Below the pieces are notes generated by a model. The model saw nothing but the letters and a program-made list of their open reading frames with translations. It had not been told where the DNA came from and searched no databases. Source: a gamma proteobacterium SCGC AAA007-O20 (GTDB lineage: Bacteria > Pseudomonadota > Gammaproteobacteria > PS1 > Pseudothioglobaceae). From it: a DNA stretch of 38,433 nt. Position numbers and translations under genes: made by a program. Location of the stretch: the NCBI GenBank assembly GCA_000213395.2, contig AFHY01000002.1, positions 1 through 38,433 of the forward strand. Reading direction: 5' to 3'. Within the stretch, counting starts at the first letter, position 1; every line of letters begins with the position of its first letter. Of this stretch, positions 10,007 to 16,622 are shown in pieces.

Positions 10007-11872
10007 TCATTTCAAATTATCAAACAAAACTTTTCTTTCTCTCATTTTCTCAATCTGTGCTAGAGTCATCCAACAAGAAATATAATAAGTTCCATCTGGA
10101 ATCATTCTTCCTAACGCCTCTGTAGAGAGTGCTTTGGTATTGGTATTTACAAGACTGATATTATTACTTTCTAAGAAGTTAATAACTACATTAGATTTAA
10201 TACCAAAGTTAGTTCCTTCTGGAACTACACCATAACTATCCATCATTACCTCAAGGTCTAGTTTTGAAACTGCTACACCTACAGCATTACCTTTGTTATC
10301 GAATATTGGACCACCACTATTGCCAGGTTGAATTGCAGCATCAATCTGCACTTGAGAAAAATTATTGCCGATACCAGCAAGGGAGCTAACGATTCCTCTT
10401 GTTATTTTGACTGGGGTACTAATATCATAACCAAAAGGGTAACCTGCAACATAAATATCCATAAGTGCATAGGGATTTTTTCTGCTTAAAGGAAAGGTGT
10501 ATAAAGGTTTAAAGTCACTCTTTAACAATGCAAGGTCATTATTTAAGTCAAAACTGATTACAGTTGCTGGAATTGTTTGACCTTTATAGGTAATTTCAAC
10601 ATTCTGGCAGCCTTCGATAACGTGATAATTAGTTACGATATGACCATCAGAAGTCACAGCAAAACCGCTACCTGATGAAGCAGGTAATATCTCGTCATCA
10701 TTTGAAAAATTATTATTATTATTATCTGTTGAATCATTTGTAGCATACAAGAACTCACCATTTTCAAAAATACCTTCTAATATATTTCCGTCGGCGTAGG
10801 TATATGTACCTTGTCCGTGCATATTGCTATCTTTAAATTCACCAGAATAACTTTCTCCATCTGAAAAAGCATATGTACCTTGTCCATGAAATTCATCATC
10901 CTTATATTGACCTACGTATTTATCACCTGCAAATTCAGTTCTGTCACCCCAAGTCTCAACACCATATCCGTTTGCTTCATTATCCTTCCATTCACCGATG
11001 TATTTACTTCCATCAGCAGAAGTATATGTTCCTTGTCCATTAAATTCGTTATCCTTCCATTCACCGACGTATTTATCTCCCTTGTACTCGTCATAAGTGA
11101 AGGTAAAAGTGCCAAAACAATTATGCCAAATTGCATTTAAATCACTGGGACAATTGGGTAATGTTTCTTCTTTGTTTGAATACAAGTATTCATTGTTTTT
11201 CCAAACACCTTCTTTTATAGTTCCATCTGCATAGGTTAAAGTTCCTTGTCCGTTATATTTGCCATTCTTAAATTCACCAACATAACTATGACCATTTTCA
11301 AAATTTAAAGTCCCTTGTCCGTTATATATGTTATTCTGAAATTCACCAATATATATTTCTCCATTTACAAAGGTATACATGCCTTGTCCGTGAAATTCAT
11401 CATCCCTAAATTCACCAACATATCTATCTCCAGATGCAAAGGTATATATGCCTTGTCCGTAAAATAATTCATCCCTAAATTCACCAACGTATTTATCACC
11501 TGCCCATTCAGTTTTTTCGCCATAGTAATAACTACCTTGTCCGTTTGATATACCATCCTTAAATTCACCGATGTATTTAGATCCATTAGTCCATATATAA
11601 GTACCTTGTCCTTGCCTTTCGCCATACTTCCATTCACCGATATACTTTTCTCCATCAGCATAGGTATATGTTCCTTGTCCGTGAAATTCATCATCCCTAA
11701 ATTCACCAACGTATTTATCACCCCTGTATTCACCACTATTTAAGGTAAAAGTGCCAAAACAATTATTCCAAATTGCATTTAAATCACTGGGACAATTGGG
11801 CAAACTCCACACTTCTTTCATCATCAAAAGTGATGTAAGGAAAATTATTAGTATGGGTAGTAGTTTTTTCAT
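10007..11872 (-). CDS. Secreted MORN-repeat protein with C-terminal trypsin-like (HtrA-type) protease
   Basis: 621 residues from the ATG at 11872; a TTG 18 bases further upstream is in frame but lies over the promoter. A signal peptide (MKKLLPILIIFLTSLLMM) ends near VWS. Two blocks follow, each opened by a Cys pair in LPNCPSDLNAIW[NH]NCFGTFT. Block 1 has about eight and block 2 about five MORN repeats of the type DKYVGEFRDDEFHGQGTYTYADG-like units. An Asn/Asp linker leads to a chymotrypsin-fold protease with His in TNYHVIEG, Asp in NNDLALLK and Ser in GNSGGP, so the catalytic triad is intact. No PDZ domain follows; a short tail with SCWMTLAQIEKMRERK ends the protein. It probably acts in the periplasm or outside, with the MORN part binding a surface, lipid or wall. 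Role unknown; defence or envelope stress are guesses. Confidence 0.88.
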   Translation of the reverse strand: MKKLLPILIIFLTSLLMMKEVWSLPNCPSDLNAIWNNCFGTFTLNSGEYRGDKYVGEFRDDEFHGQGTYTYADGEKYIGEWKYGERQGQGTYIWTNGSKYIGEFKDGISNGQGSYYYGEKTEWAGDKYVGEFRDELFYGQGIYTFASGDRYVGEFRDDEFHGQGMYTFVNGEIYIGEFQNNIYNGQGTLNFENGHSYVGEFKNGKYNGQGTLTYADGTIKEGVWKNNEYLYSNKEETLPNCPSDLNAIWHNCFGTFTFTYDEYKGDKYVGEWKDNEFNGQGTYTSADGSKYIGEWKDNEANGYGVETWGDRTEFAGDKYVGQYKDDEFHGQGTYAFSDGESYSGEFKDSNMHGQGTYTYADGNILEGIFENGEFLYATNDSTDNNNNNFSNDDEILPASSGSGFAVTSDGHIVTNYHVIEGCQNVEITYKGQTIPATVISFDLNNDLALLKSDFKPLYTFPLSRKNPYALMDIYVAGYPFGYDISTPVKITRGIVSSLAGIGNNFSQVQIDAAIQPGNSGGPIFDNKGNAVGVAVSKLDLEVMMDSYGVVPEGTNFGIKSNVVINFLESNNISLVNTNTKALSTEALGRMIPDGTYYISCWMTLAQIEKMRERKVLFDNLK

Positions 11873-11878
11873 ACTAGG

Positions 11879-11928
11879 ATTATAAATCAACTAGAGTTAA
11901 AGTCCAAATTTCGTTTGATGTGTGAGGG
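11879..11928 (-). promoter_or_regulatory. Promoter module of the MORN protease (leaderless start)
   Basis: On the minus strand: conserved block CCCTCACACATCAAACG, -35 TTGGAC at 11907-11902, a 17-base spacer and a perfect -10 TATAAT at 11884-11879. Only six bases separate the -10 from the ATG at 11872, so transcription should begin at or next to the start codon and the mRNA would be leaderless. The upstream block is kept in all three copies in this region, which suggests it is a regulator site. Confidence 0.7.
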
Positions 11929-13370: not shown

Positions 13371-14630
13371 ATGGTATTAGAAATTTTTTTTGCGGCAGGT
13401 TGTTTTTGGGGTGTTGAAAAGAACTTTGAAAACATTGAAGGTGTCATAGATGTTGTTTCTGGATACTCGGGAGGTAACTATGAAAACCCTAGCTATGAGG
13501 ACGTTCTCAAAAATCGTATTCCACAAAACGGGACCTTTTTAGATATTTTAAAAAATATTGGTCTTTCAGCTGAAGAGAAAGCAAGAAATGACAGTAATTT
13601 GGTCAATCATACTGAGACAGTCAAGGTTGTTTATGACTCAAGTCAACTTTCAACTGAGTCTTTAATCAAAAACTTTTGGGAGATTCATGATCCTACTCAG
13701 TTCAACAGACAAGGAAATGATGTAGGCAATAATTATCGCTCTGCAATCTATTGGACAACCCCAGAACAAAAAGAGATAGCTTATAGAACCAAACAAGAAT
13801 TTCAAACACTCTTGACAGCTCAAGGTTATGGGCAAATTGTAACCGAGATGGCTGCATTAGAAAAGTTTTGGCCAGCAGAGGGCTATCATCAAAACTATTT
13901 ACTGAAAAATCCAAACGGTTACTGTCCAGATCACACCACAGGTGTGAGCTTTCTAAACCAGTCGTCGTCTAAAATTGCTAAAAATGACATAGTTCCCCTT
14001 GGAAGTAAAGAGATAATTGTGATTGGGCCTGAGATAGAAGGGACCTGTCTTTTTTGCTTAGAATTTGAAAAAACAGTTACTTCAAAATATAAAGGTACTA
14101 TTCCGTTGAGGTCTTCCCCTGCATCTGCCCTGAAGGGGTTTGAATTGAACACAGAGATCTGGGCAACCCCAACTATATTTTTTATCGTTGATGGTAAAGA
14201 GGTCTGGGCGCACCAGGGGATTATGTCTTCTGAGGAGTTTTACCAAGCTTTGGGAGAATTCAAGTTGGGTAAGGATTCCGAGGCTTTTAATGTTGCCTTT
14301 AATGATGGAACAGATAGACGCTTTTGTAAACAATATGAGATATTTAAAGATACTCCTGAAGGCATATTCGTAGACAAACTTTCAGGAAGACCACTGTTTG
14401 ATACTGCTGATCGATTTAAGTCTAAATCAGGCTGGCTATCATTTACTAAGCCTGTGGATAATGAGGTGTATGAGAAGCTTGACCTTAGTTTTGGTATGGT
14501 TCGGACCGAGATAAGGTCTGTTAGTTCTGATATTCATTTAGGTCACGTTTTTAATGATGGACCTGAAGGCATGCCGAGGTATTGTATCAATGCAACTGTA
14601 CTAGAGTTTATTCCCAGAAATAGTGTGTAA
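13371..14630 (+). CDS. msrAB: Three-domain methionine sulfoxide reductase MsrA-thioredoxin-MsrB
   Basis: 419 residues. MsrA occupies about 1-200: catalytic Cys11 in GCFWG, a probable recycling Cys185 in NPNGYCPDH. A thioredoxin-like domain occupies about 210-300, with CLFC at 226-229 and a cis-Pro loop, WATPT, at 264-268. MsrB occupies about 303-419: the SGW segment, HLGHVF and catalytic Cys405 in RYCIN. It reduces both S and R epimers of methionine sulfoxide and carries its own candidate electron donor. MsrA has an insertion of about 30 residues (about 47-78) before HTETVKVVYD. MsrB lacks the zinc CxxC pairs and has Ser where related forms have the resolving Cys, so the middle domain may reduce Cys405 directly. 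No signal peptide, hence cytosolic. The start codon has only a weak ribosome site. Confidence 0.92.
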   Translation: MVLEIFFAAGCFWGVEKNFENIEGVIDVVSGYSGGNYENPSYEDVLKNRIPQNGTFLDILKNIGLSAEEKARNDSNLVNHTETVKVVYDSSQLSTESLIKNFWEIHDPTQFNRQGNDVGNNYRSAIYWTTPEQKEIAYRTKQEFQTLLTAQGYGQIVTEMAALEKFWPAEGYHQNYLLKNPNGYCPDHTTGVSFLNQSSSKIAKNDIVPLGSKEIIVIGPEIEGTCLFCLEFEKTVTSKYKGTIPLRSSPASALKGFELNTEIWATPTIFFIVDGKEVWAHQGIMSSEEFYQALGEFKLGKDSEAFNVAFNDGTDRRFCKQYEIFKDTPEGIFVDKLSGRPLFDTADRFKSKSGWLSFTKPVDNEVYEKLDLSFGMVRTEIRSVSSDIHLGHVFNDGPEGMPRYCINATVLEFIPRNSV

Positions 14631-14753: not shown

Positions 14754-15350
14754 ATGAAATTGTTTTTATTATTAAGTCTTTTATTTGTTACTTCATTGCC
14801 CGTCAATGCTGACACTAGTCTTTATGAAAGGGGAAAGGATTTAATTGAAGAAAAGGACTACGAAAAAGCACTAAAGGCTTTTGAACTTGCTGCTAAAACT
14901 GGTGATTTAGATGCAATGCATGCTGTTGGAATTATGTATATTGGCGGTTGGGGCATAGAACAAAATGATAAAAAAGGGCTTGAATATATAATCAAGGCTG
15001 CCAATCAATCACACCTCAAAGCGCAATACACTTTGGGTGCCATGTATTATCTAGGTATTGGGGTTACTTTAGACTTTGAAAAGGCTTTTAGTTGGATTAG
15101 TTTATCTGCGAATCAGGGCTATCTTGATGCGCAACACAATCTGGCCGAAATGTACGAGAATGGAAAGGGTGTAAAGAAGAATCTTGAGAAAGCTTATGAG
15201 TATTATCTTTTAGCTGCAAGGAAGGGTAATTTAGATTCTCAAAAAATGGTTTCTGAAATGTATAAAGAAGGCATCGGTACAGAAAAAAATATAGAAAAAA
15301 GTGAGTATTGGTTAAAGCAAATCGAGGAATCGAAAGTAATCAGTCAGTAA
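14754..15350 (+). CDS. Exported Sel1-repeat protein
   Basis: 198 residues with a signal peptide (MKLFLLLSLLFVTSLPVNA) and about four Sel1-like TPR repeats of 36 residues. Signature pieces are LDAMHAVGIMYIGGWGI, LKAQYTLGAMYYLGIGV, LDAQHNLAEMYENGKGV and LDSQKMVSEMYKEGIGT. Such proteins scaffold protein-protein contacts in the periplasm; no catalytic domain is attached. TACAAT at 14740-14745, with TGAACA 18 bases before it, lies so close to the ATG that the transcript would have almost no leader. It is flanked by msrAB and ubiM with gaps of 123 and 78 bp, so no operon partner is obvious. Specific role unknown. Confidence 0.88.
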   Translation: MKLFLLLSLLFVTSLPVNADTSLYERGKDLIEEKDYEKALKAFELAAKTGDLDAMHAVGIMYIGGWGIEQNDKKGLEYIIKAANQSHLKAQYTLGAMYYLGIGVTLDFEKAFSWISLSANQGYLDAQHNLAEMYENGKGVKKNLEKAYEYYLLAARKGNLDSQKMVSEMYKEGIGTEKNIEKSEYWLKQIEESKVISQ

Positions 15351-15428
15351 GACTGTTCTTTATTAGATCAATATATATTTTTTAAAGGGTGCTAAAATGA
15401 ATCCTCATCAAATTAACGCAACTGTGAG

Positions 15429-16622
15429 ATGGATTACGATATCGTTGTTATAGGGGGAGGACCCGCAGGTCTAAGCTTTGCCTGCTCTATGTCTGGTTTG
15501 AACTTGAATGTTCTTCTTGTTGAAAAGTCATCACTTAAATCGATTTCAAAACCTAAGCCAGATGGTCGTGAAATAGCGCTAACTCATCATTCCCGTAAAA
15601 TATTAATAAAGCTTGGCGTCTGGGCACTTATTGACGAAGCCAAAGTGAGTCCACTAAAAGAGGCAAAAGTATTTGACGGCGGCTCTGATTCTTTGTTGAA
15701 CTTTGACGCTAAAAAATCCGCAATTGAAGCTTTGGGTTATTTAGTGCCGAATCATTTGATTAGAGCGGCATTGTTTGAAAGGGCCTTGCAAATAGAGAAT
15801 GTGACCATTGTAAATGAGCTTATGGTAGATGGAGTTAGTACTACTAATACGGGCGCAGAAGTTTCACTATCTAATGGTAAAACCATTAAATCTAAACTGG
15901 TTGTTGCAGCAGATAGTCGTTTTTCTGAAATTAGGAGAAAGATGGGAATACCTTCGATTATGAAAGACTTCTCCAAGGTGATGATAACAACAAGAATGTC
16001 ACACGAAAAAGCCCACAATCATGTCGCCTTAGAGTACTTTAATTACGGCCACACGCTAGCACTTTTGCCACTTAATGGAAACGTTTCATCCATAGTACTT
16101 ACGGTTCCAACTGATAGGTTAGATGAAATTTTAAGCCTTGATGAGGAAAGCTTTAACGAGATGGCAAGCGATGGTTTTGATGGAAAATTAGGCCAAATGA
16201 AACAGATTGGCGATCGACACTCGTATCCTCTAGTTGGGGTCTATGCTCAGAAATTTAGAGCAACAAGATTTGCACTAATTGGTGATGCAGCTGTGGGTAT
16301 GCACCCGGTAACTGCGCATGGTTTCAATTTAGGTTTGAGAGGACAAGATCTGCTATCGTTGTCTATTAGTAGGGCGCTTAATAGCGGTCTTGATATTGGC
16401 GCAGATGTAGTATTAAAAGAGTTTGAAAGAAAACAAATCAACCTATCTAGGTTGATGTATTTTGGCACCAACGGAATTGTTTCATTGTTTACTAATGATG
16501 ATGCGGCAATTAAGCAAGTTAGAAAATTGGTGCTTAAGTTTGCAAATCGTTTCCCTCCAGTCAAGGCTTTGATAACCCAGCACCTGACAGAATCAAAAAA
16601 GAGTAACCTGATTCCTTTTTAA
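15429..16622 (+). CDS. ubiM: FAD-dependent ubiquinone-biosynthesis hydroxylase, UbiM-like
   Basis: 397-residue flavoprotein monooxygenase of the UbiH/UbiF/COQ6 family, hydroxylating the ring of a ubiquinone precursor, likely at the inner membrane surface. The FAD-binding motif VVIGGGPAGLSFA is at residues 6-18, DGREIALTHHS at about 45-55, and the second FAD motif IGDAAVGMHPVTAHGFN lies near residue 285. The VGMHPVTAHGFN variant and the DGREIALTH segment are what I associate with the UbiM branch rather than UbiH/I/F; this rests on memory of the family, and the hydroxylated position is therefore tentative. A short ORF starting at ATG 15397 overlaps the start in another frame and is not counted. 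pdxH follows 11 bases later, so the two are probably cotranscribed. Confidence 0.85.
   Translation: MDYDIVVIGGGPAGLSFACSMSGLNLNVLLVEKSSLKSISKPKPDGREIALTHHSRKILIKLGVWALIDEAKVSPLKEAKVFDGGSDSLLNFDAKKSAIEALGYLVPNHLIRAALFERALQIENVTIVNELMVDGVSTTNTGAEVSLSNGKTIKSKLVVAADSRFSEIRRKMGIPSIMKDFSKVMITTRMSHEKAHNHVALEYFNYGHTLALLPLNGNVSSIVLTVPTDRLDEILSLDEESFNEMASDGFDGKLGQMKQIGDRHSYPLVGVYAQKFRATRFALIGDAAVGMHPVTAHGFNLGLRGQDLLSLSISRALNSGLDIGADVVLKEFERKQINLSRLMYFGTNGIVSLFTNDDAAIKQVRKLVLKFANRFPPVKALITQHLTESKKSNLIPF

Follow-up and report, generated by a model that had tools for sequence, protein, structure and literature searches.

A scattered bacterial fusion of MsrA, a thioredoxin-like domain and MsrB, with a candidate resolving cysteine in its MsrB

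Many Msr enzymes are recycled by a separate thioredoxin. The window analysed here, a stretch of 38,433 nucleotides from the gamma proteobacterium SCGC AAA007-O20 (contig AFHY01000002.1), contains an open reading frame in which MsrA and MsrB flank a redox domain, and this raises the question of whether such a chain recycles itself and through which cysteines. The answer favoured here, with a probability of about 0.62, is that the fusion is a self-recycling bifunctional Msr, probably cytoplasmic, that works by the steps proposed below. The protein is a genuine, conserved Msr fusion, scattered among bacteria, that contains a thioredoxin-like domain of its own. A first-pass annotation, made from the DNA letters, is partly confirmed in what it observed and partly supported in how it interpreted the gene.

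The features of the gene are collected in Table 1. Both reductase domains are assigned from a profile score over the curated cut-off together with a catalytic motif. PMSR (PF01625) matches in two stretches, of which the best covers residues 77-185 (E 6e-54, 182.9 bits versus a cut-off of 23.7), and the domain carries the GCFW motif; SelR (PF01641) matches with an E of 6.5e-31 and 107.1 bits (cut-off 24.9), and the catalytic Cys of RYCIN is present. When the whole protein is searched with Pfam, the gap between PMSR and SelR gives just a weak match to Thioredoxin_2 (E 0.055, below the cut-off). The CLFC motif at 226-229 nevertheless falls between the two reductases, which bears out the order MsrA-redox domain-MsrB first read from the letters. 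Upstream, the frame is closed by a stop codon 3 codons 5' of the ATG, and therefore has no room for a signal peptide, as had been proposed. A model of the full-length protein reaches a mean pLDDT of 76 and a pTM of 0.52 and is poor in MsrA; a fold search with this model returns Msr entries among the matches listed. The source genome (1.03 Mb, 62% complete) also contains, on contigs C140 and C154 (L002 and L003), pieces that match free-standing msrA and msrB genes.

Table 1. Coordinates in the window of the fusion gene, its domains and its cysteines
Feature	Coordinates	Strand	Evidence
Whole gene, 419 aa, MsrA - thioredoxin-fold domain - MsrB	13371..14630	+	ATG start; ORF and Pfam
MsrA domain, about residues 1-193	13371..13949	+	Pfam PMSR; phmmer against solved MsrA chains
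Cys11, presumed MsrA catalytic Cys (GCFW)	13401..13403	+	43/43 covering clade I rows, 24/24 clade II rows
Lineage-specific insertion in MsrA, about residues 48-77	13512..13601	+	Alignment; low model confidence
Cys185, presumed MsrA resolving Cys (NPNGYC)	13923..13925	+	44/44 covering clade I rows, 24/24 clade II rows
Middle thioredoxin-fold (SoxS-like) domain, residues 205-304 as modelled	13983..14282	+	Profile, model and fold searches
CLFC redox motif, residues 226-229	14046..14057	+	CXXC in 68/69 rows
MsrB domain without zinc site, about residues 303-416	14277..14618	+	Pfam SelR 303-415
Cys319 (RFCKQY), proposed MsrB resolving Cys	14325..14327	+	45/45 clade I rows, 0/24 clade II rows
Cys405, presumed MsrB catalytic Cys (RYCIN)	14583..14585	+	44/44 covering clade I rows, 24/24 clade II rows

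The fusion is not there by chance: 18 of 28 other genomes of the same genus match it at E <= 1e-20 with identities of 94-70% over the aligned rows; at a completeness of at least 90%, the count is 8 of 11. Five of 8 genomes from other genera of its family also match at this threshold. Downstream, on the same strand, lie a Sel1-repeat gene and then a FAD_binding_3 gene (14754-16622). These neighbours are matched at 16 and 15, respectively, of the 18 same-genus loci. No match to either gene lies close to the fusion at the other loci compared; the flanks covered were about 1.5 kb for own-family loci and 4 kb for named loci. Elsewhere in the window, an ORF of 627 residues on the minus strand (10007-11890) combines MORN repeats, in 8 stretches, with a Trypsin_2 protease domain.

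The MsrA domain is interrupted by an insertion that had been noticed before and that is real: in comparison with the T. denticola MsrAB, residues 45-78 of the fusion stand against about 4, giving roughly 30 extra residues. Its reach is limited to part of the fusion's own family. Positions 47-79 hold 31-33 residues in 21 of the 24 own-family rows; the insertion is absent from L025 and L026, and L027 does not cover the region. The same positions hold 10-13 residues in the other clade I rows and 10-15 in clade II, about 20 fewer. Judged from the alignment, the insertion is a lineage feature.

Several comparisons agree on the nature of the middle domain. Taken in isolation, it matches Thioredoxin_2 with an E of 0.0038 and 18.0 bits, below the Pfam cut-off of 27, and the middle domains of 55 of 68 relatives match this profile at E <= 0.01. 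Among solved chains, the top match of a profile built from the relatives' middle domains is SoxS (3d4t, E 2.6e-7). For residues 205-304, the model reaches a pLDDT of 94. With this model, Foldseek places ordinary thioredoxins in the lead (3vfi, E 2.5e-4) and SoxS at rank 14; with VIA-align, SoxS 3dml is at the top (Z 12.2, rmsd 1.9, 87 aligned), tied with Caulobacter Trx1 (Z 11.9). The N-terminal chain of PilB is not among the matches listed for the domain, which has no bearing either way. The TP proline, P267, is conserved in 69 of 69 rows. As far as the model tells, then, the middle domain has a thioredoxin fold with CXXC and the TP proline, and the fold on which the first reading of this region depended has held up, with Z values of 11-12 for SoxS and thioredoxins.

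The cysteines were counted by column in an alignment of 69 rows, 45 from clade I, to which the fusion studied belongs, and 24 from clade II. In a tree of 65 rows, the two clades sit on two long branches, each supported at 100/100 (42 and 23 rows). The roles of Cys11, Cys185 and Cys405 are assigned from knowledge of their families. The one row that departs from CXXC is L027 (positions 1-672, genome G036), which reads NSNY there and keeps Cys319 and Cys405; the contig start cuts this locus, and an MsrA piece of G036 lies on a different contig. At column 353, where an MsrB usually has its resolving Cys, every one of the 69 rows has Ser or Thr and the fusion studied has Ser (SKSGW); the alignment also finds both zinc Cys pairs absent from its MsrB; on these two absences the first-pass annotation was correct. 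Across the 69 rows, the MsrB part of neither clade contains a Cys beyond Cys405 and, in clade I, Cys319. Column 319 in clade II, to which for example a protein of Allochromatium humboldtianum (L057) belongs, is Thr, Ser or Ala (24/24), and in this clade the catalytic Cys is the sole Cys of MsrB, with both resolving positions lacking one (24/24).

The further claim that the MsrB has no resolving Cys is probably wrong, because Cys319 was overlooked. This residue is present in every clade I row and occupies the same alignment column as the Cys of APFCG in L116, a stand-alone MsrB from Pseudoxanthomonas, whose closest solved relative, nearly identical, is the X. campestris MsrB 3hcj. Apart from the APFCG-position Cys, 3hcj contains only its catalytic Cys and those of two CXXC pairs. 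The resolving Cys of the X. campestris enzyme is usually called Cys31. In the X. campestris structures, as PMC7475093 describes them, a disulfide joins the resolving and active-site Cys, and the resolving Cys is located downstream of N-terminal helices. Clade I conservation, the Xanthomonas-type column and the X. campestris disulfide together argue that Cys319 is very probably the MsrB resolving Cys of the fusion studied. An MsrB devoid of any resolving Cys candidate was rejected on the conservation of Cys319 and the column it shares with L116 and 3hcj; the original claim fits the clade II relatives and should be withdrawn for the fusion studied.

The computations support the domain assignments, the thioredoxin fold, the conservation of the Cys set and the homologous position of Cys319; for catalysis, the disulfide pairs, internal electron transfer and the outer donor, we infer the following course. 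In MsrA, Cys11 would reduce Met-S-sulfoxide and Cys185 would resolve the sulfenic acid. In MsrB, Cys405 would reduce Met-R-sulfoxide, with Cys319 acting as the resolving Cys in the manner of a Xanthomonas-type MsrB. Cys226 and Cys229 of the SoxS/thioredoxin-like domain would then reduce one or both of the disulfides, Cys11-Cys185 and Cys405-Cys319. Finally, the middle domain would itself be re-reduced by cellular thioredoxin reductase/thioredoxin or by glutathione. A thioredoxin reductase over the cut-off is present in 16 of 22 same-genus relatives, and none over it was found in the source genome, at its 62% completeness; a glutathione synthetase over the cut-off is present there. The central step draws on PilB, whose fused thioredoxin-like N-terminal domain reduces the Msr domains, according to PMC6210582; by this analogy, reduction of the Msr disulfides is the most likely task of the middle domain in the fusion.

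Where the reaction would take place may differ among relatives. By a crude hydrophobicity rule, in which the start outside the own family was set at the nearest upstream Met, signal-like N-termini occur in 10 of 43 scorable clade I rows, five of the ten being SAR86; for clade II the count is 5 of 24. This is a hint at possible use of the same fusion on either side of the membrane.

Some observations count against self-recycling by this route. The zinc site is absent, and the loop movement seen in 3hcj may not carry over to such an MsrB. Within the PilB chain, only MsrB is reduced efficiently, as reported in PMC6210582. In addition, L027 lacks CXXC, separate msrA and msrB pieces exist in the genome, the MsrA part of the full-length model is of poor quality, and the source genome offers no thioredoxin reductase over the cut-off. 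The PilB behaviour and L027, which has no CXXC and still has Cys319 and Cys405, are also the points that favour a division of labour in which the middle domain serves one reductase alone, much as the PilB domain serves mainly MsrB within its chain, or has turned mainly into a spacer, with free thioredoxin doing the rest. This is unlikely. A spacer would need no CXXC, yet all but one of the 69 rows, spread over two deep clades, retain the motif, and the L027 copy may be decaying or misassembled, given the contig start that cuts it and the MsrA piece on a different contig.

A different course, proposed by the first-pass annotation, dispenses with a working resolving Cys in MsrB altogether and has Cys226 directly reduce the sulfenic acid of Cys405. 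The Ser at the usual resolving position favours it, as does clade II, where proteins of the same architecture have an MsrB with the catalytic Cys alone; moreover, direct reduction of the MsrB3 sulfenic acid by thioredoxin is reported in PMC6488974 to be possible, though inefficient. For the fusion studied, however, Cys319 stands at the Xanthomonas-type resolving position in 45 of 45 clade I rows, a strong resolving candidate that makes direct reduction quite unlikely here. Direct reduction fits clade II better than it fits the fusion studied, and is plausible there because neither resolving position has a Cys in any of the 24 rows. Self-recycling through Cys319 is kept as the reading for this protein.

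The history of the two kinds of MsrB can be approached through a tree of the MsrB part, with 62 rows made up of 32 fusion rows and 30 others, two-domain fusions included. All fusion rows fall on one side of a branch supported at 99/97 and found in 98% of bootstrap trees. Among these rows, a Cys occupies column 353 in 15 of the 30 others and in 0 of the 32 fusion rows, and column 319 in 16/16 clade I rows, 0/16 clade II rows and 1/30 others (L116). The tree and the two columns fit one origin around an MsrB that lacked the usual resolving Cys, followed by a gain of Cys319 in clade I. They permit a broader scenario, which we offer tentatively as a possibility: the fusion arose once, the tethered thioredoxin replaced the usual resolving Cys, clade II would rely on direct reduction, and clade I, having gained Cys319, would run a stepwise disulfide relay in one chain. 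A single origin is opposed by the MsrA tree, a weakly supported quick tree in which an MsrA-only ORF (L088) lies among clade II rows. Furthermore, half of the non-fused MsrB rows, including the two-domain L151 and L152, likewise have no Cys in column 353, and its loss may thus be independent of fusion. The clades differ at residue 356 as well: clade I reads GWLSF (GWL in 16/16), and all MsrBs outside clade I in this comparison, 16 from clade II and 30 others, read GWP.

For the fusion studied taken alone, the finding is modest. If the broader scenario is true, the two clades would amount to a natural experiment that asks if a resolving Cys can be replaced by a tethered thioredoxin. Because they differ in one decisive cysteine, the purpose of a resolving Cys could be tested in matched natural proteins.

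The domain order is not confined to this lineage. A scan of relatives' contigs found at least 80 loci among 592 relatives, and the architecture was examined in 50 of the 80; 44 of these 50 have one uninterrupted fusion ORF with a central CXXC. Carriers include Pseudoalteromonas, Rheinheimera, Kangiella, SAR86, Chromatiaceae, Nitrosomonas, Halothiobacillus, Lysobacteraceae and three Campylobacterota. One Campylobacterales locus (L077) has a match of about 1.5 kb in which the ORF with the MsrA motif ends after 174 residues, so that no single full fusion is present. In an even sample of the class, a match at E <= 1e-50 occurs in only 2 of 143 genomes, the source genome included; thus, the fusion is scattered among bacteria and is not common. 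A literature search with hyphenated architecture names had a single match, a 2018 review of archaeal Msr (PMC6211008), which lists MSRA-Trx-MSRB among archaeal architectures and gives MSRAB, MSRBA and Trx-MSRAB as bacterial examples. The bacterial MsrA-Trx-MsrB is undescribed in the titles and abstract openings found, most subscription journals lying outside the search. A unique domain order was rejected on the strength of the 44 loci and the archaeal listing, and these partly supply the counter-evidence, described proteins sharing the order, that the first-pass annotation had named.

Among known systems, PilB of Neisseria is alike in having both Msr activities and a thioredoxin-fold domain in one chain, and in an MsrB without zinc Cys pairs. 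It differs in order and export, as the first-pass annotation had picked out, and in domain type. PilB is arranged thioredoxin-MsrA-MsrB, in contrast to MsrA-Trx-MsrB here, and the fusion scores 273 bits against NF010625, an NCBIfam entry we take to be the PilB model, for which the equivalog cut-off is 522. In PilB, as described in PMC6210582, the domain resembles TlpA and carries WCPLC, and a periplasmic form of the protein also exists, whereas the domain here is SoxS/thioredoxin-like with CLFC and the fusion has no signal peptide. Filing the fusion as PilB was rejected by its order, its NF010625 score and the absent signal peptide. The archaeal MSRA-Trx-MSRB named in PMC6211008 has the same order, a likeness by name alone.

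Other systems resemble single parts of the chain. SoxS of Paracoccus pantotrophus (3dml, 3d4t) is similar in fold and profile, with CLYC where the fusions have CLFC or CLYC; unlike the fused middle domain, it is a free-standing periplasmic protein. The X. campestris MsrB (3hcj, 3hci) shares with the fusion a Cys in the PFC position and the lack of one at GW, but it stands alone and has both zinc CXXC pairs, which the fusion MsrB lacks. The best whole-protein PDB matches of the fusion, among the matches listed, are two-domain MsrAB proteins. In those of H. pylori (7e43), S. pneumoniae (3e0m) and T. denticola (5fa9), MsrA is followed by a zinc-less MsrB, as in the fusion; unlike the fusion, they have no middle redox domain and carry a Cys at the usual resolving position.
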